Shown here: one piece after another, positions 43,182 through 64,000 of the stretch | How the letters are laid out: each line of letters begins with the position of its first letter | Position numbering within the stretch: position 1 is the stretch's first letter | Origin: Flavobacterium sp. 90 | GTDB lineage: Bacteria; Bacteroidota; Bacteroidia; Flavobacteriales; Flavobacteriaceae | Length of the DNA: 64,000 nucleotides | NCBI RefSeq assembly: GCF_004339525.1 | Contig: NZ_SMGE01000001.1 | Span: forward strand, 5,580,001 to 5,644,000 | Direction of reading: 5' to 3' | Program-made: the position numbers and the translations under genes | Notes under the pieces: generated by a model | What the model was told of the DNA's origin: nothing | Database searches by the model: none | Seen by the model: only the letters and a program-made list of their open reading frames with translations

Positions 43182-44855
43182 TTAATTATCGGTAACGCAA
43201 CCTGTAGAAGCGCTTGAAACCGATCTCGCATATTTAAGTAAAACTCCTTTTGTAACTTTTAACGGTGGCTGAACCCAAGCCGCTTTTCTTGCTGCAAATT
43301 CTTCGTCAGATATTTTCAGGTTGATTGTATTATTTACAGCATCGATTGCGATTAAATCTCCATCTTTTACTAAAGCAATACCACCACCATCATAAGCCTC
43401 TGGTGTGATGTGTCCTACGACAAAGCCATGTGAACCTCCAGAGAATCTACCGTCTGTGATAAGAGCACAAGTGCTACCTAATCCGGCTCCGATAATTGCA
43501 GATGTAGGCTTCAACATTTCAGGCATCCCCGGACCACCTTTTGGTCCACAATACCTGATGACGACTACATTACCTGGTTTTATTTTTCCGGCCTCAAGAC
43601 CTGGAATTACTTCAAATTCTCCTTCAAAAACTACAGCAGGTCCTTCAAAATATTCTCCTTCTTTTCCGCTGATTTTTGCTACTGCTCCTTCCGAAGCAAG
43701 GTTTCCGTATAAAACCTGAATATTTCCTGTTGGTTTCAACGCTTTTTGAATTTCATGAATTACTTCTTGTCCGTCTTGTAAATCCGGAGTCGAAGCTAGA
43801 TTTTCAGCAACTGTTTTTCCTGTTACAGTCAAACAATCTCCGTGAATCAATCCTACTTTTAGTAAATATTTCATTACTGAAGGAATTCCTCCTACTTCAT
43901 GAATATCTTCCATCATATATTTACCACTTGGTTTCATGTCGGCAAGAACCGGAGTTCTGTCATTAATAGCCTGAAAATCATCCAGCGTAATTGTAATACC
44001 AACAGAATGTGCCATTGCAATTAAGTGCATAACTGCATTTGTAGAACCTCCTAAAACTGCTACAATTGTAATAGCATTTTCAAAAGCTTTACGAGTCATG
44101 ATATCTTTTGGCTTAATATCTTTTTCTAATAAAATTTTAATTGCAGCTCCTGCAGCAAGACATTCGTCTCTTTTTGCCTGGCTTAAAGCAGGGTTTGAAG
44201 AACTGTATGGCAAACTCATTCCTAATGCTTCAATTGCCGAAGACATTGTATTTGCAGTATACATTCCTCCACAAGCACCAGCTCCGGGACATGCATTTTG
44301 GATAACTCCTTTAAAATCTTCCGGAGTAATTTCTCCTTTTACTTTTTTTCCTAAAGCTTCAAAAGCAGAAACAATATTTAGCGTTTCTCCTTTCCATTTT
44401 CCAGAGTGAATTGAACCTCCGTAAACCATAAGAGACGGGCGATTTAATCTTCCCATAGCGATTAAAGCTCCGGGCATATTTTTATCACAACCAGGAATCG
44501 CAATAATACTATCATACCATTGTGCTCCTGCAACTGTCTCGATAGAATCTGCAATTACATCACGAGAAACTAATGAATAACGCATTCCTTCAGTTCCGTT
44601 TGAAATTCCGTCACTGACACCAATGGTATTAAAAATAAGTCCGACCAGATTTACATCCCAAACACCTTTTTTAACATCTTTTGCTAAATCGTTTAAGTGC
44701 ATATTACAAGTGTTACCATCGTAACCCATGCTCACAATACCAACTTGTGCTTTTTTTAAATCTTCTTCAGTTAAACCAATACCATACAACATCGCTTGCG
44801 CCGCAGGTTGTGTTTGATCTTGAGTGATGGTTTTGCTGTACTTATTTAATTCCAT
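43182..44855 (-). CDS. ilvD: Dihydroxy-acid dehydratase
   Basis: This 557-aa iron-sulfur enzyme dehydrates dihydroxy-isovalerate and dihydroxy-methylvalerate to the 2-keto acids of Val and Ile synthesis. Cluster-binding and active-site motifs are visible: '[20 protein letters not shown]', '[20 protein letters not shown]' and '[20 protein letters not shown]'. It is the first structural gene of the ilv operon and is preceded by the leader peptide and attenuator at 44885-45013. Confidence 0.97.
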
Positions 44856-44884: not shown

Positions 44885-44915
44885 AAAAAAAAACCTTCCA
44901 ATATTTGGAAGGTTT
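44885..44915 (-). terminator. Attenuator terminator of the ilv operon
   Basis: AAACCTTCCAA (44891-44901) and TTGGAAGGTTT (44905-44915) form a perfect 11-bp stem with a 3-nt loop. On the minus strand it is followed by 9 U's (44893-44885). It sits 23 nt after the leader peptide stop and about 30 nt before ilvD, the position of an attenuator. Confidence 0.9.
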
Positions 44916-44938
44916 GTAATATAGTTTTTCAATTATAT

Positions 44939-45013
44939 TTATACCATTCCCGATGCAGATGTGCTAAACACATTGACAACAACGACAGAAGTAATAATAA
45001 TTGAGATTTGCAT
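44939..45013 (-). CDS. ilv operon leader peptide (Ile/Val-rich)
   Basis: This 24-codon reading frame starts MQISIIITSVVVVNVFSTSA and ends SGMV. It holds 4 Ile codons and 6 Val codons, clustered as III and VVVV, but no Leu. It lies directly upstream of the ilvD attenuator, with a TAnnTTTG promoter 20 nt before the ATG. Ribosome stalling at Ile/Val codons under starvation would prevent terminator formation. The frame and codons are seen in sequence; the mechanism is inferred from the classic attenuation scheme. It is too short for usual gene finders. Confidence 0.85.
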   Translation of the reverse strand: MQISIIITSVVVVNVFSTSASGMV

Positions 45014-51350: not shown

Positions 51351-51530
51351 AAATAGTTTGATTTTTGATTTGTTTCCTACTCTATTAGCTTTTCGGATTA
51401 CGCTTTGTTTGTTCATTTTCAAATTAATAGAATCTAAAATAGAAAAATAAAACGTTAATATTCGTACAAAATATGTAATTAACATTCAGAAGAAATTTCA
51501 ATGAAAAAAATCCAAATGACTTATATCCTA

Positions 51531-55862: not shown

Positions 55863-56618
55863 TCAAAGCCTAACTTCAATACCATTATCCCTAAGTTCTT
55901 CCTTCAAAGTCTTAATCTCAATCTCTTTAAAGTGAAAAACACTCGCAGCCAAAGCAGCGTCTGCTTTTCCTACCTTAAATGAATCTACAAAATGCTGAAT
56001 ATTTCCCGCACCGCCAGAAGCAATAATCGGGATATTTATTAAAGTCGATAATTTGGCCAAAGCTTCGTTTGCAAAACCATTTTTGGTTCCGTCATTATCC
56101 ATCGAAGTAAATAGAATTTCTCCTGCGCCGCGTTCAGCAACTTCTATTGCCCAATCGAATAAATTAAGTTCTGTAGGCACTTTTCCACCAACTAAATGTA
56201 CAATCCATTGCCCGTTAATTTGCTTAGCATCAATTGCAACAACAACACATTGGCTTCCGAATTTCTGAGCCAAATCATTAATCAATTGCGGATTTTTTAC
56301 TGCCGATGAATTGATCGAAACCTTATCAGCGCCATTATTTAATAGAATTTCAACATCTTCAACAGACGAAATTCCACCGCCAACTGTAAACGGAATATTG
56401 ATTTTCTCTGCAACGCTTCGCACCATATTGACCAACGTTTTACGACGTTCTTCGGTAGCCGAAATATCCAAAAACACCAATTCATCCGCACCTTCAGCCG
56501 AATATATTTCAGCCAGTTCCACCGGATCACCAGCATCACGCAAGTCAACGAAGTTAACACCTTTTACGGTTCTTCCGTTTTTTATATCCAAACAAGGAAT
56601 GATTCTTTTTGCTAACAT
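55863..56618 (-). CDS. hisF: Imidazole glycerol phosphate synthase, cyclase subunit
   Basis: This 251-aa TIM-barrel enzyme forms imidazole glycerol phosphate and AICAR from PRFAR and the ammonia made by HisH. The sequence begins [20 protein letters not shown], with the catalytic Asp in CLDI. '[20 protein letters not shown]' and '[20 protein letters not shown]' are the phosphate-binding loops. Length is typical (E. coli 258 aa). It follows hisA by 79 nt. Confidence 0.97.
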
Positions 56619-56697
56619 TTTTCTTTTGTTAATTGTTGGATGTAAGATGTGAAATGTTATTTGTAAAACGTAAAACTGCCATTTTACAATTCACTTT

Positions 56698-57426
56698 TTA
56701 CATTTTACCAATAATATAATTTTCAAGTTGTTTCAAACTAATTCTTCCTTCATAAATTGCTTTTCCAATAATGGTTCCTTCGCAACCTAATTCGGCTAAT
56801 TTAGGAAGTTCGTCGAATGTCGAAATTCCACCCGAGGCAATCAGTTTTACGTCATTTGCTTCAGCTAAAATTTTCTTGTACAAATCAAAACTTGGGCCTT
56901 GTAACATTCCGTCTTTTGCGATATCCGTACAAATAACGTACTGAATTCCTTTAATTTGATAATCCTGAATAAACGGAATCAAATCTTCGTCTGAATCTTC
57001 TAACCAACCAGAAACGGCAATTTTTTCATCTTTAGCATCAGCACCAAGAATAATTTTTTCCGAACCATATTCCGAAATCCATTTTTCAAAAATTGCTCTG
57101 TTTTTTACAGCAATACTTCCACCCGTAATTTGACTTGCGCCACTTTCGAAAGCGATTCTCAAATCATCATCAGATTTTAAACCTCCGCCAAAATCAATTT
57201 GCAGACTAGTTTGCGACGCAATTTGCTCTAATATTTTGTAATTGACAATTTTACTCGATTTTGCGCCATCTAAATCTACTAAATGTAAATATTCGATTCC
57301 GTGTGCTTCGAATGATTTTGCTACTTCAAGAGGATTTTCATTGTAAATTATTTTAGTGTCATAATCTCCTTTTGACAAACGAACGCATTTTCCGTCGATG
57401 ATGTCTATAGCTGGTATTATTCTCAT
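56698..57426 (-). CDS. hisA: ProFAR isomerase
   Basis: This 242-aa TIM-barrel enzyme isomerises ProFAR to PRFAR. It starts [20 protein letters not shown], with the catalytic Asp8 in AIDI. The second acid lies in '[20 protein letters not shown]', and '[20 protein letters not shown]' is a phosphate loop. It is paralogous to HisF next door, which supports the classic gene-duplication relation. Spacing to hisH is 80 nt, with AT-rich repeats. Confidence 0.97.
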
Positions 57427-57506
57427 ATTTTGATATTTTAGATTTTAGATTCTAAAAATTGAAATTGTTTTTTTGATATTGATTTTAAAAATTGGAATTT
57501 AGAATT

Positions 57507-58088
57507 TTACATTTTTAAGAAATTATCTAAAATCTTCTCCCCAACTGCTCCACTTTTCTCTGGGTGAAATTGAGTTCCGTAAAAATTATCTTTTTGCAAA
57601 GCCGATGCGTATTCAAGTTCGTAATCCGTGATAGCAATGGCTTCATCGCAATTTGGGGCGTAAAAACTATGCACCAAATACATAAATTCATTCTCAGAAA
57701 TTCCTTTAAACAAATCCGATTTTAAATCATAAATCTGATTCCAGCCCATTTGTGGCACTTTTACTTTTGAAGTAAATTTAATCACATCAACATCAAAAAT
57801 TCCAAGTCCCTTAGTATTTCTTTCTTCAGATGATTTACACATTAATTGCATTCCAAGACAAATTCCCAAAACTGGTTGCTTCAAATTCGGAATCAAACTA
57901 TCCAAACCGCTTTCCTTCAGTTTTTTCATCGCCGAACTTGCTTCTCCAACTCCGGGAAAAATCACTTTATCTGCCGCCAGAATTTCATCGGGATTATTAC
58001 TCAAAACAGCCTTAAAACCAAGCCTTTCAATAGCAAACATAATGCTCTGAATATTTCCCGCTCCGTAATTTATAATTACTATTTTCAT
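57507..58088 (-). CDS. hisH: Imidazole glycerol phosphate synthase, glutaminase subunit
   Basis: This 193-aa class-I glutamine amidotransferase supplies ammonia to HisF. The nucleophile elbow is 'LKQPVLGICLGMQLMCKSSE' (GICLG, Cys), the oxyanion-strand region is 'VIFPGVGEASSAMKKLKESG' and the catalytic His-Glu pair sits in 'KDNFYGTQFHPEKSGAVGEK'. Length is typical. The gene is followed by hisA and preceded by hisB with a 101-nt spacer of TCTAAAGTCTAAAGTCTTAAAG repeats. Confidence 0.97.
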   Translation of the reverse strand: MKIVIINYGAGNIQSIMFAIERLGFKAVLSNNPDEILAADKVIFPGVGEASSAMKKLKESGLDSLIPNLKQPVLGICLGMQLMCKSSEERNTKGLGIFDVDVIKFTSKVKVPQMGWNQIYDLKSDLFKGISENEFMYLVHSFYAPNCDEAIAITDYELEYASALQKDNFYGTQFHPEKSGAVGEKILDNFLKM

Positions 58089-58097
58089 TTATTTAGT

Positions 58098-58130
58098 CTT
58101 AAAGTCTAAAGTCTAAAGTCTTAAAGTCGC
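58098..58130. repeat. Short tandem AAAGTCT repeats in the hisB-hisH spacer
   Basis: TTAAAGTCTAAAGTCTAAAG is followed by TCTTAAAGTCG, four near-copies of a 7-8 bp AAAGTCT(T) unit, inside the operon. The 'CTAAAGTC' word is shared with the hisF-hisIE spacer. Confidence 0.65.
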
Positions 58131-58189
58131 TTCTTGATATCCATAATACAGAAATCTTTCGACTTTATGACTTTCAACTTTTGACTAAA

Positions 58190-59326
58190 TTAAAGCATTC
58201 CCTTTGTCGAAGGCAAAATCATTTTCTCTGTATCTCTTTTCACTGCTACTTTTATGGCTTTCGCGAAAGCTTTAAAAATCGCCTCAATTTTGTGGTGTTC
58301 GTTTGTTCCTTCGGCTTTTATGTTGATATTAGCTTTTGCGCCATCAGAGAATGATTTAAAGAAATGAAAAAACATTTCTGTTGGCATTTTTCCAACCATT
58401 TCGCGTTTAAATTCCGTTTCCCAAACTAACCAGTTTCTTCCGCCAAAATCAATTGCAACTTGCGCTAAACAATCGTCCATTGGCAAACAGAAACCGTAGC
58501 GTTCGATTCCTAATTTATTTCCTAAAGCTTTAGCAAAAACTTCACCCAAAGCAATTGCAGTATCTTCAATCGTGTGGTGTTCATCAACTTCAAGATCTCC
58601 TTTTACAAGAATTTCCAAATCCATTTGACCGTGACGTGCGATTTGATCCAACATATGATCAAAAAAAGCAATTCCGGTTTCGATTTTACTTTTTCCTGTT
58701 CCGTCAAGATTTAAATTAATAAAAATGTCAGTTTCATTGGTTTTACGCATAATCGAAGCCGAACGTGCTTCTAACTTCAAAAACTCATAAATTTCCTTCC
58801 AACTCATTGTTTGAAGAATAATCGTTTCGTCAAGTTCTTCACGCTTTGATGAAATTTCATTGCTTCCAATTCCATCATTATCATTGATAAAAATTGCTTT
58901 TGCACCAAGATTTTTCGCCAATTCAACATCAGTCAAACGATCTCCTAAAACAAACGAATTTGCCAAATCATATTCTGGATTATCAATATATTTCGTCAAC
59001 ATTCCCGTTCTTGGCTTGCGTGTTGGCGCATTATCTTCCGGAAAAGATCTGTCTATAAATATATCATCAAACAAAACTCCTTCATTTTCAAAGGCTTTTA
59101 AAATAAAATTTTGCGTTGGCCAAAACGTATCTTCCGGAAAACTATCCGTTCCTAATCCGTCCTGATTGGTCACCATCGCCAATTCGTAATCTAATTCATT
59201 GGCAATTTTAGCCAAATATTGAAAAGCTTTCGGGTAAAATTCTACTTTCTCCAAAGCATCTAATTGATAATTTTCTGGTTCTAACACAATCGTTCCATCA
59301 CGATCGATAAAAAGTACTTTTTTCAT
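58190..59326 (-). CDS. hisB: Bifunctional histidinol-phosphatase / imidazoleglycerol-phosphate dehydratase
   Basis: This 378-aa fusion has an N-terminal HAD phosphatase (about 1-165) with '[20 protein letters not shown]' (DxDGT) and '[20 protein letters not shown]', and a C-terminal IGPD domain (about 187-378) with '[20 protein letters not shown]' and '[20 protein letters not shown]' manganese-binding His clusters. It carries out steps 6 and 8 of histidine synthesis, as in enterobacteria. A structured-RNA-like element lies between it and the upstream membrane gene. Confidence 0.96.
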
Positions 59327-59342
59327 AGTTTATTTATATTTT

Positions 59343-59451
59343 GGGCGTGTCCCTCCGGGTCGGGCTTTCGGCTATATTCCTGATTAACAAAAACTACGGC
59401 TAAAAAGCCTTATTTTTCTAAATCGGGAGATACCGCCTCTATCCCTCACGC
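59343..59451 (-). ncRNA. Structured-RNA-like dispersed element inside the his operon (possibly Flavo-1-like)
   Basis: Read on the minus strand it begins GCGTGAGGGATAGAGGCGGT and ends AAGCCCGACC...GGAGGGACACGCC, with complementary ends (GCGTG/CACGC) and an inner stem near TTTTTAGCC/GGCTAAAAA. From memory this GCGTGAGGGAT...GGGACACGCC pattern is a recurrent Flavobacterium repeat and may be the Flavo-1 RNA motif. It sits in the 157-nt gap between the membrane gene and hisB. Assignment is unverified. Confidence 0.45.
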
Positions 59452-59483
59452 AAAAACGGTTTTCGAGATCTTTATAATTACTT

Positions 59484-59963
59484 TTATGCTATATGATATT
59501 TACTTTCAATATCGGTTCCTTTGAATTGTACACTTAACAGCCAATTACCGTACTTTGTGTATTCAATATCGATAACATCATTTAACTTTAATTTTAAAAA
59601 AACTTTTTCACTGACATTACAGCTTCTTATTACATTCGAATCAAAAATAATTTTAAATGTTGAAGGATTTTTTCTTCTAAAACCTTCTTCTTTGTCAATG
59701 ATCTTAAATTCATTAATAATCTTAATTCCTTCCTTCAAATCTTTTCTGGCTCCAAAAATTTGTGTCGAGTAATAATAAATTAGTACAGACAAAATAATAA
59801 GACCAGCAAAAACAATAAAAAAAGATCCCGAAAAATAATAACAAGTAATTGTAAAACCAATAATAAATACTGAAAGAAAAGCAATCAAAATACTAACTTG
59901 TCTAATCTTGTTTTTTAAGATTTTCATTTCATCATCATTCATTCGTGTTTCAACAGGGATCAT
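59484..59963 (-). CDS. Small membrane protein of unknown function inside the his operon
   Basis: This 159-aa protein has two adjacent hydrophobic segments near residues 20-62 ('VSILIAFLSVFIIGFTITCY', 'FFIVFAGLIILSVLIYYYST') and a soluble beta-rich C-terminus ('STFKIIFDSNVIRSCNVSEK', VFLKLKLNDVIDIEYT). It has no resemblance to a histidine enzyme and lies between hisC (74 nt) and hisB (157 nt) on the same strand. The start may be the ATG at 59963 or the internal Met8. It appears to be a late insertion in an otherwise conserved operon. The function is unknown. Confidence 0.65.
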   Translation of the reverse strand: MIPVETRMNDDEMKILKNKIRQVSILIAFLSVFIIGFTITCYYFSGSFFIVFAGLIILSVLIYYYSTQIFGARKDLKEGIKIINEFKIIDKEEGFRRKNPSTFKIIFDSNVIRSCNVSEKVFLKLKLNDVIDIEYTKYGNWLLSVQFKGTDIESKYHIA

Positions 59964-60037
59964 AAATCATAATTTTTATTCTAGCAAAAACTTTGTGCAC
60001 TTAGCGTAATTCTTTGCGAACTTTGCGGTTAAACTTG

Positions 60038-61084
60038 TTACTTCAACAACTTCAGTTCTTTAATCAAAACTGCATTTTCCTCTGGAATTCCAATCGTAAA
60101 ACGAAGACAATTTTCGCATAAAGGCTGAGTTGTTCTGTTTCTGATTACAATTCCTTTTGCGATTAATTGATCGTATCTTTTATTAGCATCATCAACTTTT
60201 ACTAATACAAAATTAGCTTCTGTAGGATATACTTTTTCGACAAAACTCACTTCAAGTAAAACTTTAAGCAATTCTTCTCTTTGCTCAATAATAGAAGTTA
60301 TTTCTTGTTTTATTTTATTCGAATCGTTCAAACGTGTGATAGCTCTTTGCTGCGTTAATTCGTTTACATTATAAGGGGGTTTTATTTTATTTAAAACTGA
60401 AATTACAGCTTCAGAACCATAACAAATTCCTAAACGAATTCCTGCCAAACCGTATGCTTTTGAAAGCGTTTGTGTAATCACCAAATTTGGATATTCATCG
60501 ATTTCTGTCAACCAGCTTTCTTTGTCCGAAAAATCAATATACGCTTCATCAATTACAACCAAACCTTTAAAATTTTGAAGTAATTTCACCACACTTTCGT
60601 CCGAAAAAGAATTCCCGGTTGGGTTATTTGGTGAGCATAAAAAGATGATATTAGTATTCTCATCTACAGCGTCTAAAATTTTCTCTACTTGTGGCTGAAA
60701 ATCGGTTGAAAGTAAAACTTCTCTGTTTTCTACAGCGTTAATATTTGCCAAAACACTGTACATTCCATAAGTTGGTGGCAACGAAATAATATTATCCATT
60801 TTTGGCTCACAAAAAGCTCTGAAAAGTAAATCTAACACTTCATCACTTCCGTTTCCTAGTAGAATCTGACTTGATTTTACGTTATTATTCTTCGCTAAAA
60901 TCGCTTTAACCGAACTCTGTTGCGGATCCGGATAACGATTCACCCCATTCTGAAACGGATTTTCATTAGCATCCAGAAAAATCATTTCAGCTGTATCAAA
61001 ATCCTCGAACTCATCTCTGGCAGATGAATAAGGTTTTAATGTTTTTACGTTTTCACGCGTTATTGTATTTATATCGAATTTCAT
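60038..61084 (-). CDS. hisC: Histidinol-phosphate aminotransferase
   Basis: I use the ATG at 61084 (348 aa); the longer frame adds 11 residues absent from the family. This PLP enzyme converts imidazole-acetol phosphate to histidinol phosphate with glutamate. The PLP lysine lies in 'NLVITQTLSKAYGLAGIRLG' (Lys in SKAYG). 'NIIFLCSPNNPTGNSFSDES' and 'VVIDEAYIDFSDKESWLTEI' are fold-type I motifs. It follows hisD by 121 nt. Confidence 0.96.
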   Translation of the reverse strand: MKFDINTITRENVKTLKPYSSARDEFEDFDTAEMIFLDANENPFQNGVNRYPDPQQSSVKAILAKNNNVKSSQILLGNGSDEVLDLLFRAFCEPKMDNIISLPPTYGMYSVLANINAVENREVLLSTDFQPQVEKILDAVDENTNIIFLCSPNNPTGNSFSDESVVKLLQNFKGLVVIDEAYIDFSDKESWLTEIDEYPNLVITQTLSKAYGLAGIRLGICYGSEAVISVLNKIKPPYNVNELTQQRAITRLNDSNKIKQEITSIIEQREELLKVLLEVSFVEKVYPTEANFVLVKVDDANKRYDQLIAKGIVIRNRTTQPLCENCLRFTIGIPEENAVLIKELKLLK

Positions 61085-61139
61085 TTTTTTTATTTTTTGA
61101 GGAGAGGAAAGAGGCAAGATTGAAGAACCAAGACTAAAA

Positions 61140-61205
61140 TCTAAATCTTTACACTATAAATCTTTCATCTTGCTTCTTGCTTCTTGCTTCTTCATTCTAT
61201 TTTCT
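61140..61205. repeat. CTTGCTT-type tandem repeats in the hisD-hisC spacer
   Basis: CATCTTGCTTCTTGCTTCTT then GCTTCTTCATTC contains a TTGCTTC unit in three tandem copies; on the transcript this reads GAAGCAAGAAGCAAGAAG. It is part of the low-complexity style of his-operon spacers. Confidence 0.65.
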
Positions 61206-62489
61206 TTACTCTAAACTCTTTAAGCGAAGCGTCACAGCATTTTTATGCGCTTGCAAACCTTCGGCTTCAGCCATAACTTCGATTGCGCGACCAATGTTTT
61301 GAATTCCTACTTTGGAAATTTTCTGAAAAGTCATTGATTTCATGAAACTATCCAGATTTACACCGCTGTAATTCTTAGCGTATCCGTTTGTTGGCAAAGT
61401 ATGATTGGTTCCTGAAGCATAATCTCCGGCACTTTCAGGAGTATAATTTCCAATAAAAACAGAGCCAGCATTTACGATTCCGTTGCAATAGAAATCATCA
61501 AATTCTGAACATATAATAAAATGTTCCGGTCCGTATTCATTGATTAATTCTAATGCAATCTGGTCATTTTCAACGTAGATTAATTTTGAATTTTCGATTG
61601 CTTTTTGAGCGATTTGCTTTCGCGGAAGCGCTTCAATTTGAGTCTGAATCTCGTTCTCGACAGCATCAATTAATCTTCTTGAAGTCGAAACTAAAATCAC
61701 TTGACTGTCTGTTCCGTGTTCTGCCTGAGATAACAAATCTGACGCTACAAAAGCCGGAACTGCAGTATCATCAGCAACAACCAACAATTCTGATGGTCCT
61801 GCCGGCATATCAATTGCAACTCCAAATTGTGTTGCCAATTGTTTTGCAACCGTTACAAACTGATTTCCAGGCCCAAAGATTTTATAAACTTTTGGAATTG
61901 ATTTTGTCCCAAATGTCATTCCTGCGATCGCTTGAATTCCCCCAACTTTTAAGATTTTTGTTACGCCGCATAAATTGGCAGCATATAAAATTGCCGGATT
62001 TATTTTCCCTGTTTTATCTGGTGGCGAACATAATACAATTTCTTTGCAGCCTGCGATTTCCGCAGGAACTGCCAACATTAAAACGGTTGAAAACAAAGGC
62101 GCTGTTCCTCCCGGAATATAAAGTCCAATTTTTTGAATTGGTCTTTTTTCCTGCCAACAATTAACACCTTCTGTAGTTTCAATCGAAATTCTCTCTGTTT
62201 TTTGAGCGGTGTGAAATTTTAAAATATTTGCTTTTGCTAATTGAATAGCGTCTTTCAATTCTTCCGAAATCAAACCAATTGCTTCCTGAATTTCTTCAGT
62301 TGTAACTTCGTAATTTTCTAAAGCGATTCCGTCAAAAATCGAAGTATATTTTGCAACAGCTTCATCTCCTTTTTTCTGTACTTCTTTAAAAATTTCTTTT
62401 ACCGTCACTTCGATATCATCGATCGTTTTGGTTGGTCTTTTTAATATTTCTGACCAGGTTTCTGGTTTTGGATTGTCTATTTTATTCAT
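61206..62489 (-). CDS. hisD: Histidinol dehydrogenase
   Basis: This 427-aa zinc enzyme oxidises histidinol to histidine in two NAD+-dependent steps. The conserved signature 'DMPAGPSELLVVADDTAVPA' is followed by 'SDLLSQAEHGTDSQVILVST', which holds the zinc-binding Gln-His. 'YGPEHFIICSEFDDFYCNGI' carries the catalytic Glu-His. 'SAGDYASGTNHTLPTNGYAK' is the substrate region. Length is standard (E. coli 434 aa). It lies 106 nt after hisG. Confidence 0.97.
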   Translation of the reverse strand: MNKIDNPKPETWSEILKRPTKTIDDIEVTVKEIFKEVQKKGDEAVAKYTSIFDGIALENYEVTTEEIQEAIGLISEELKDAIQLAKANILKFHTAQKTERISIETTEGVNCWQEKRPIQKIGLYIPGGTAPLFSTVLMLAVPAEIAGCKEIVLCSPPDKTGKINPAILYAANLCGVTKILKVGGIQAIAGMTFGTKSIPKVYKIFGPGNQFVTVAKQLATQFGVAIDMPAGPSELLVVADDTAVPAFVASDLLSQAEHGTDSQVILVSTSRRLIDAVENEIQTQIEALPRKQIAQKAIENSKLIYVENDQIALELINEYGPEHFIICSEFDDFYCNGIVNAGSVFIGNYTPESAGDYASGTNHTLPTNGYAKNYSGVNLDSFMKSMTFQKISKVGIQNIGRAIEVMAEAEGLQAHKNAVTLRLKSLE

Positions 62490-62595: not shown

Positions 62596-63453
62596 TTAAA
62601 GAACCATTTTCTCAATTGGGCAAACTAAAATTCCTTCGGCTCCAGCCTCTTTTAGTTTATCTATTACATCCCAAAAAGTGTCTTTATCTATTACCGAGTG
62701 AACACTGCTCCAGCCTTCTTGCGCTAATGGTAAAACGGTTAAACTTCTTAAAACCGGTAATATTTTACCAATTTCATCAATTTTATCATTTGGTACATTC
62801 ATCAAAATATACTTTGAATTTCTTGCTCTTAAAACAGATTGAATTCTGAATTTTAAAGTATCGATGTGTTTCTGAATTTCTGGAGAAACTTTTGGAGAAA
62901 CCGCTAAAACTGCTTCACTTTTCAGGATTACTTCTACTTCTCTTAAGTTGTTTTTGAATAATGTGCTTCCGCTCGAAACAATATCTACAATGGCATCTGC
63001 AAGACCAATATTTGGTGCAATTTCTACAGAACCAGAGATTTGGTGAATATCAACTTTTAATCCAAAAGAATCGAAATATTCATTTACAGTATTCGGGTAA
63101 GAAGTTGCAATACGTAAACCTGCCAAATCCTGAATTGAGTTGTAATTGAAGGCTTTAGGAACTGCAACAGAAACCTTGCATTTTGAAAATCCTAATTTTT
63201 GAATTACTTCAATGTGTTTTCCTTTTTCTACCAACAAATTATCTCCTACAATAGCAAGATCTACAACTCCATCAATTAAATATTGTGGAATATCTGAATT
63301 TCTCAGGTACAAAACTTCTAATGGAAAATTTGAAGCTTCAGCTTTTAATTGGTCGTTTCCGTTGTTGATCGAAATACCACAATCTTTTAAGATTTGAATG
63401 CTGTCTTCGTTTAAACGACCAGATTTTTGAATTGCAATTTTTAATGTACTCAT
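62596..63453 (-). CDS. hisG: ATP phosphoribosyltransferase, long form
   Basis: This 285-aa enzyme commits PRPP and ATP to histidine synthesis. It is the long (HisG-L) type with a C-terminal regulatory domain of about 75 residues ('KYILMNVPNDKIDEIGKILP', 'VIDKLKEAGAEGILVCPIEK') that binds histidine for feedback inhibition, so no HisZ is needed. The PRPP-binding segment is 'NIGLADAIVDIVSSGSTLFK'. It is the first structural gene after the his leader and attenuator. Confidence 0.96.
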   Translation of the reverse strand: MSTLKIAIQKSGRLNEDSIQILKDCGISINNGNDQLKAEASNFPLEVLYLRNSDIPQYLIDGVVDLAIVGDNLLVEKGKHIEVIQKLGFSKCKVSVAVPKAFNYNSIQDLAGLRIATSYPNTVNEYFDSFGLKVDIHQISGSVEIAPNIGLADAIVDIVSSGSTLFKNNLREVEVILKSEAVLAVSPKVSPEIQKHIDTLKFRIQSVLRARNSKYILMNVPNDKIDEIGKILPVLRSLTVLPLAQEGWSSVHSVIDKDTFWDVIDKLKEAGAEGILVCPIEKMVL

Positions 63454-63503
63454 TTTTTTTAGTTTTTGCTTGATTAATAGTTTGAGTACAAAGAATTGGT
63501 ATA

Positions 63504-63535
63504 AAAAAACCCGTTTGATGTACTCAAACGGGTTT
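63504..63535 (-). terminator. Attenuator terminator of the his operon
   Basis: AAACCCGTTTGA (63507-63518) and TCAAACGGGTTT (63524-63535) form a perfect 12-bp stem with a 5-nt loop, followed on the minus strand by U's (63509-63504). It lies 28 nt after the leader stop and 50 nt before hisG. Confidence 0.92.
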
Positions 63536-63563
63536 TAAAATATGATGATTTACATGCATACCA

Positions 63564-63623
63564 TTAACACATCGCTTGAGAGCAATAATGAAAATGATGA
63601 TGATGTAATTGAATAGAAATCAT
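63564..63623 (-). CDS. his operon leader peptide (HHHHFH)
   Basis: This 19-codon frame reads MISIQLHHHHFHYCSQAMC, with five His codons (all CAT) in six positions. A promoter -7 box lies 36 nt upstream, and the perfect attenuator stem follows. Ribosome stalling at the His run when charged tRNA-His is scarce would favour an antiterminator and permit hisG transcription. The sequence is directly visible; the mechanism is inferred from classic his attenuation. The peptide is unlike the enterobacterial HisL in sequence but equivalent in design. Confidence 0.92.
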   Translation of the reverse strand: MISIQLHHHHFHYCSQAMC

Positions 63624-63658
63624 GACTTGGTTTGTTTTTTAATTCTTTGATTCGGTTG

Positions 63659-63684
63659 CAAATATAATAGTTAATTTAATAAAA
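63659..63684 (-). promoter_or_regulatory. -7 promoter element TATATTTG of the his operon
   Basis: On the minus strand TATATTTG (63666 to 63659) matches TAnnTTTG, with a TTG about 21 nt upstream (near 63688) as a possible -33 element. It precedes the leader ATG at 63623 by 36 nt. Confidence 0.7.
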
Positions 63685-63763
63685 AAGCAATTTTTAATTT
63701 AACTTAACGACAGTTTATTGTTAAAAAACGTAATCTATGCTGTTTTTATTACATTTTTTTATT

Positions 63764-64000
63764 TTACGATAACGTTTTCTGATTCTCGTTAAAACTCAAA
63801 AAAACTGTTGTTCCAACTCCTATTTCACTCTCGATTTTAAATTTAATATGTAGTAATTCTGTAATTCTTTTTACAATAGACAATCCTAATCCGGTTCCTT
63901 TAATTTCAGGATGATCCGTTGAATTTGATCTAAAGAAAGGATTGAAAATTGCTTCAAGATCTTCTTTGGCAATTCCGATTCCGTTATCAGAAATTTTACA
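63764..64000 (-). CDS. Sensor histidine kinase, C-terminal fragment (runs off the window)
   Basis: Only the last 78 codons are inside the window. They encode the ATP-binding domain's G boxes: 'DNGIGIAKEDLEAIFNPFFR' (N/G1 region) and 'GTGLGLSIVKRITELLHIKF' (G2), ending NQKTLS. This is the HATPase_c domain of a two-component sensor kinase. The sensor and dimerisation domains lie beyond 64000, so the signal is unknown. It converges away from nothing; it reads toward the his operon, with the his promoter about 100 nt downstream of its stop. Confidence 0.9.
   Translation of the reverse strand, partial: CKISDNGIGIAKEDLEAIFNPFFRSNSTDHPEIKGTGLGLSIVKRITELLHIKFKIESEIGVGTTVFLSFNENQKTLS

Follow-up and report, generated by a model that had tools for sequence, protein, structure and literature searches.

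Attenuation by leader peptides is a textbook mechanism. In the his leader of Escherichia coli and Salmonella, for which Rfam has a family, a His-rich leader peptide precedes hisG, and an antiterminator and a terminator share an arm. A comparative study by Vitreschak et al. in 2004 reportedly predicted attenuators in several phyla, including the Bacteroidetes/Chlorobi, on the same principle and possibly for the same operon.

In Flavobacterium psychrophilum, a conserved structured 5' element that is found in other genera and has no Rfam hit lies before hisG, and strong clues for leader-peptide attenuation have been reported ahead of amino acid operons (PMC9723704). Genus and gene are those of the locus described here; the accessible part of that paper's text describes neither the sequence of a leader peptide nor an antiterminator or a third partner for the hisG element, and its Table S7 may hold the anatomy. 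The Bacteroid-trp RNA (RF01692; PMC2864571) resembles the module described below in having a leader rich in codons for one amino acid, in its case Trp, followed by a terminator. The genome analyzed here has such an RNA (C1:3681722-3681847; L222); its leader frame contains WWW, and it includes a terminator. A literature search by title and start of abstract, whose coverage mostly left out subscription journals, returned no paper on the anatomy of a Bacteroidota his leader or on a downstream partner.

We analyzed a window of 64,000 nucleotides (nts) from the 6.65-Mb, single-contig genome of Flavobacterium sp. 90. Upstream of its hisG lies an element that, judged from sequence comparisons, very likely controls the his operon by ribosome-mediated transcription attenuation and carries an additional pairing. 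Like the enterobacterial his leader, it has a leader with His codons before hisG and alternative hairpins with a common arm. It differs in that the leader ATG has no evident Shine-Dalgarno sequence, the predicted antiterminator strand lies inside the leader frame, and there is an extra partner downstream. The Rfam his leader family gave no match in the window at its gathering score. The sole Rfam match in the window at gathering score was the DUF805b RNA motif (RF02914) at 51374-51406 on the minus strand.

RESULTS

The locus and the samples

Table 1 lists the features of the locus. On the minus strand, the order is promoter-like site, leader frame, 27-nt spacer, perfect hairpin with seven Ts, 49 nts, and the hisG start codon. 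The hisC-, hisH-, hisA-, and hisF-like frames are presumably the remaining genes of the his operon downstream of hisG. Between the hisC-like gene and hisB there is a 159-amino-acid frame (59484-59963, minus strand) that looks membrane-like by eye and to which the NCBIfam models gave no match. Directly upstream of the locus and on the same strand is what appears by eye to be the C-terminal part of a histidine-kinase-like frame (63764-64000).

TABLE 1 Features of the his leader region and operon in the window
Feature	Sequence or content	Position	Strand	Basis
Promoter-like site	TTG 63690-63688, N21, TATATTTG 63666-63659	63659..63690	-	Read from sequence
Leader peptide gene	MISIQLHHHHFHYCSQAMC plus stop codon, 19 codons, ATG start	63564..63623	-	Read from sequence
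Control codons	His x4, Phe, His	63588..63605	-	Read from sequence
Predicted segment 1:2 hairpin	His codons and stop-codon region	63550..63608	-	MFE of read-through RNA
Segment 2, antiterminator 5' strand	CTCAAGCG, within codons Ser-Gln-Ala	63573..63580	-	Folding and swap tests
Spacer after stop codon	27 nts, inner stem of antiterminator hairpin	63537..63563	-	Alignment; nascent-RNA fold
Segment 3, terminator 5' arm and loop	AAAACCCGTTTGA 63536-63524, loop 63523-63519	63519..63536	-	Read from sequence; pairing analyses
Segment 4, terminator 3' arm	TCAAACGGGTTTT	63506..63518	-	Read from sequence
Terminator T-run	Seven T	63503..63509	-	Read from sequence
Segment 5	TGTACTCAAAC, between terminator and hisG	63480..63490	-	Pairing tests
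hisG	First gene of the his operon	62596..63453	-	NCBIfam TIGR00070
Further his genes	Same strand as hisG	55863..62489	-	Gene list
hisD		61206-62489	-	NCBIfam
hisB		58190-59326	-	NCBIfam

The initial annotation, made from the sequence alone, had proposed a TAnnTTTG promoter. A promoter-like site, TTG-N21-TATATTTG, is indeed present and matches TTG-N-TAnnTTTG, which we take to be the promoter consensus. The columns of TATATTTG show no variation across 80 aligned sequences, and we infer that transcription starts a few nts downstream of it.

The near set consists of the best 80 of 344 hisG matches. These were 77 Flavobacterium, 2 "Flavobacteriaceae bacterium," and 1 [Flexibacter] sp., so the early description of the genome as Bacteroidota-like was correct. 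One near locus (L045) has only 40 nts of upstream sequence and was dropped. For the wider sample, 140 genomes each contributed up to 500 nts of sequence ahead of hisG; 88 were Flavobacteriaceae of other genera (family), 3 belonged to the same genus, 19 were other Flavobacteriales (order), and 30 came from the rest of the class (class). Genomes with hisG that were left out numbered 1 of 86 for the family (the genome of the window), 10 of 35 for the order (including that genome and two close genus mates), and 15 of 45 for the class (four were already in the sample).

A His-rich leader and a predicted terminator precede hisG

The frame does carry five His codons in six positions, as annotated and as read directly from the sequence. 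Of the 80 near loci, 79 have upstream of hisG a leader containing three or more His, the exception being the dropped locus. For the 140 fetched loci, we counted a leader as His-rich if a short frame upstream of hisG had at least three His within eight residues. Such leaders were found in 86/88 family, 3/3 genus, 18/19 order, and 28/30 class loci. The loci below the threshold were L103, L105, L189, L206, and L208; the genome of L189 is 0.6 Mb in size and presumably belongs to a reduced endosymbiont. Dinucleotide shuffles yielded His-rich leaders in 2.2 family, 0.1 genus, 0.4 order, and 1.1 class loci (2 to 4% in the family, order, and class sets), and the opposite strand had His-rich frames in 2, 0, 2, and 3 loci, respectively. 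A His-rich leader upstream of hisG occurs far beyond chance across the class. The short frame rich in His codons that is expected of an attenuator thus stands ahead of the his biosynthesis operon. When the window is added to the 79 near loci, 79 of these 80 sequences keep the peptide tail SQAM, which has no His, and one has PQAM; in many other genera the tail is QAR or QAS.

The frame had been described as directly followed by a 12-bp perfect stem and a U-tract ahead of hisG. The U-tract is present, and the stem is perfect and comes after the frame, but it has 13 pairs once the whole A:T run is counted (63536-63506, loop GTACA), and "directly" is loose, since 27 nts separate the stop codon from the stem. 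The predicted energy of this hairpin in the window is -17.9 kcal/mol. A terminator-like hairpin follows the leader in 83/83 genus loci (79 near loci, the window, and 3 more) and, among loci with a leader, in 86/86 family, 18/18 order, and 26/28 class loci; the two class loci with a leader and no terminator were left out of later counts. The hairpin finder is permissive: of 830 shuffled genus sequences, 681 yielded a call. A score as high as that of the real hairpin, however, was reached by 0/830 genus, 0/860 family, 0/180 order, and 11/260 class shuffles. By its sequence, the intrinsic terminator required of an attenuator lies between the leader and hisG in the window, although a consensus terminator scan found none at this leader. 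The scan may have missed it because the hairpin stem takes in four of the seven Ts. The recurrence of leader and terminator before hisG across the class supports the annotated reading of his attenuation, although that reading was incomplete.

Among class loci outside the Flavobacteriales (e.g., L195, L196, and L214), the spacer from the terminator to the hisG start is only 12 to 27 nts in 13 of the 26 with a terminator, and there the terminator may itself extend to where hisG starts.

A predicted antiterminator shares the terminator arm

The locus had also been called a complete attenuation module. The leader and terminator, the promoter-like site, and the arrangement of the genes were borne out, but a downstream third partner had been missed, and the module could not be called complete because no antiterminator had been named. 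One is now predicted. Segment 2, CTCAAGCG, in the Ser-Gln-Ala codons, pairs with CGTTTGAG of the terminator 5' arm, and this pairing of the tail codons explains why the non-His tail of the peptide is conserved.

We folded nascent RNA with a ribosome set on the second His codon and the RNA ending at the terminator loop. In the window, the antiterminator fold had an energy of -16.6 kcal/mol, which rivals that of the terminator hairpin. The spacer that forms its inner stem is nearly invariant in the near set. In the nascent RNA, the arm was paired upstream by at least 5 bp in 80/80 near-set sequences, 89/89 further family and genus loci, 18/18 order loci, and 25/26 class loci; at least five of these pairs were inside the leader frame in 80, 89, 16, and 17 loci, respectively. 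Leaders fit their own arms better than swapped ones (family, -13.7 versus -12.3 kcal/mol; order, -13.2 versus -9.4; class, -12.4 versus -9.8), and swapped arms reached the fit of the own arms in 0 of 5,000 permutations in each of the three sets. The bare 2:3 duplex was modestly better than mononucleotide shuffles, with median z-scores of -1.9 (genus), -3.0 (family), -2.1 (order), and -1.8 (class). For the antiterminator aligned with MAFFT, RNAalifold returned no structure, which we attribute to gaps in the inner stem. Even with a stalled ribosome in place, equilibrium folding of the complete RNA favored the terminator; therefore, the choice must be kinetic, made during transcription.

Ribosomes were placed by counting nts, with a footprint taken to reach about 12 nts ahead for a stalled ribosome as for one at the stop codon. 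A ribosome reaches 12 nts past the stop codon (PMC4833913). With its A site on any one of His codons 1 to 4, the ribosome stops short of segment 2, and at the leader stop codon it covers segment 2. The predicted antiterminator, as expected of an attenuator, shares the terminator arm, would lie free under a stall, and would be hidden by a ribosome at the stop codon. The minimum free energy fold of the read-through RNA also predicts a segment 1:2 hairpin, which would mask segment 2 in untranslated RNA.

From this anatomy, with its mutually exclusive complementarities and their covariation, we infer ribosome stalling, termination, a response to His, and the action of segment 5 described below. 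Attenuation very probably works through the alternative of 2:3 and 3:4 pairing. If charged tRNA-His were ample, the ribosome would pass the His codons, reach the leader stop codon, and cover segment 2; segments 3 and 4 would then pair, and RNA polymerase would terminate ahead of hisG. If charged tRNA-His were low, the ribosome would stall at the first four His codons and leave segment 2 free to form the 2:3 antiterminator hairpin, and the polymerase would continue into hisG.

Segment 3 has a probable third partner near hisG

Segment 5, TGTACTCAAAC, is the perfect complement of GTTTGAGTACA (63529-63519), the upper terminator arm plus the loop. With G-U pairs counted, 79 of the 80 sequences (the window and 79 near loci) retain all 11 pairs and the other one retains 10; for the window alone, 11/11 was reached by 8 of 20,000 shuffled spacers. 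The spacer between terminator and hisG start codon ranges from 12 to 115 nts (string lengths of 8 to 111 plus 4 nts trimmed). After exclusion of 14 loci with spacers of less than 24 nts, 94 of 108 loci (the window, other genus loci, and the family and order loci) were used. At least 10 of 11 pairs were found in 64 of the 94, versus 3.4 expected from mononucleotide-shuffled spacers, and the other 30 fell below that number. The 3:5 z-score was below -3 in 82/83 genus, 40/86 family, 11/18 order, and 1/26 class loci. Own 3:5 pairs beat swapped pairs in both the family and the order (0/5,000 permutations each), but there was no preference for the own partner in the rest of the class (2,475/5,000). 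By this swap test, segment 5 appears to be absent outside the Flavobacteriales.

We also placed segment 5 with a leave-one-out motif that is blind to segment 3, the starting consensus of which was chosen by eye, and kept the 78 of 94 loci with a motif score of at least 4. These loci had 9.63 pairs versus 8.71 when permuted. The four loop positions, which are unpaired in the terminator, gave 3.14 versus 2.36 (permuted maximum, 2.67), and the arm positions gave 6.49 versus 6.36; thus, the loop positions carry most of the signal. When the loci were collapsed to 59 distinct combinations, the overall signal was still reached in 0/5,000 permutations, as was that of the 45 distinct loop combinations; the arm positions alone were reached by 13/5,000. 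These permutation tests allow for kinship only insofar as most of the family sample has a single genome for each genus and duplicates were collapsed. Loop types with a matching partner include GTAAA, GTACA, GACAA, GCAA, GCAG, GCAT, GCTA, and GTAGC. We believe the 3:5 pairing to be real with good, if not complete, confidence.

What segment 5 may do

In the window, the 3:5 duplex (-13.4 kcal/mol) is weaker than the 3:4 hairpin. Segment 5 is transcribed only past the terminator; therefore, it would act on the read-through RNA, or with released leader RNA in trans, and it cannot prevent termination. In the Flavobacteriales, segment 3 could pair with segment 5 near hisG, perhaps loop first, and segment 5 would most likely link hisG translation to the same segment 3.

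The distance from segment 5 to the hisG start is 13 to 18 nts in 44 of 59 well-paired loci and 20 to 28 nts in the near set. In Flavobacterium johnsoniae, the -20 to +20 region of mRNAs is unusually unpaired (PMC6847099), and a gap of 13 to 18 nts puts segment 5 at the edge of that region. The larger gap makes simple blocking of the hisG start less convincing in the near set. In the window, part of segment 5, TGTACTCA, also pairs over 8 bp with TGAGTACA at the hisG start, and this hairpin appeared in all predicted window folds but one that was forced into 3:5. Nevertheless, a conserved anti-start role was rejected: where the loop is GACAA, GCAA, or GCAG, the partner tracks segment 3 and not hisG. 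We also rejected a second terminator, as five Ts in seven within 12 nts downstream were found in only 5 of 59 well-paired loci, and considered a DNA site for a protein unlikely, given the variable spacer length. The distances from segment 5 to hisG and to the terminator have a similar spread (interquartile ranges, 15 to 18.5 and 15.5 to 22.5 nts), and both correlate with spacer length (0.73 and 0.79), so that spacing favors neither as the anchor. Action on hisG translation in cis is the role that we consider most likely, although our confidence in it falls somewhat short of even.

The locus could instead be a plain ribosome-mediated attenuator in which segment 5 is a functionless by-product, for example, of words such as GAGTA that occur alike in the loop, in the spacer, and at the start of hisG. 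We consider this unlikely, but it has points in its favor: hisG starts with ATGAGT in 54 of 93 loci (the window aside), segment 5 of the window matches the hisG start as described above, and two other leaders in this genome lack a partner of this kind (for the trp attenuator, the best downstream duplex is 5 bp, and the ilvD leader, described below, has no stable one). However, segment 5 tracks segment 3 also where hisG starts differently or the loop is GACAA, GCAG, GCAT, or GTAGC, and the motif-placed, loop, and collapsed permutation tests all favor own partners.

Less likely still is that the terminated leader RNA acts in trans, its loop pairing in His-rich cells with segment 5 of the hisG mRNA and lowering translation or stability. 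The 3:5 pairing takes in the exposed terminator loop, as a toehold would, and the Sinorhizobium trp leader RNA is said to act in trans; the trp leader peptide of Sinorhizobium also does so (PMC7298713). Yet both partners are in one molecule, and pairing in cis is simpler. Finally, that the frame is fortuitous or encodes a small functional peptide, with the terminator closing an upstream transcript, is very improbable despite the histidine-kinase-like frame upstream on the same strand and the conserved tail SQAM, since 28 of 30 class loci have a His-rich leader before hisG (outside the Flavobacteriaceae, the tails of many are unrelated), the tail codons pair with the terminator arm, and a promoter-like site lies between the upstream frame and the leader.

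Other leaders in the genome

The window has a second attenuator-like leader, MQISIIITSVVVVNVFSTSASGMV (start at 45013), in 44885-45013 on the minus strand, with a hairpin and T-run from 44915. It adjoins ilvD (43182-44855) on the upstream side and would be a leader for branched-chain amino acids. No leaders were seen before the pheA and homoserine dehydrogenase genes, but several gene positions were wrong, so that absence is not implied.

DISCUSSION

Ribosome-mediated attenuation is already known, and this attenuator may be among those predicted in the 2004 comparative study; the literature searched showed no earlier report of segment 5, which sets this example apart. We tentatively propose that segment 3 arbitrates among three exclusive pairings: with the leader frame to read on, within the terminator to stop, and with the segment 5 site by hisG. 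In such a five-segment attenuator, which would be specific to the Flavobacteriales, a single ribosome on the leader would determine not only termination but also how well the hisG mRNA is translated or how long it lasts, in cis or via released leader RNA. In the window, segment 3 copies the hisG start (TGAGTACA), and segment 5 could choose between this decoy and the true start codon.

For a hisG 5' element of a type singled out as probably original and deserving study (PMC9723704), there is now an anatomy and a proposed mechanism. In the phylum Bacteroidota, mRNAs are without Shine-Dalgarno sequences (PMC6847099). A working attenuator requires transcription and translation to run close together, and this element would offer a direct test of their coupling in that phylum. 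If segment 5 works, a classic attenuator would also govern events after the polymerase has escaped.
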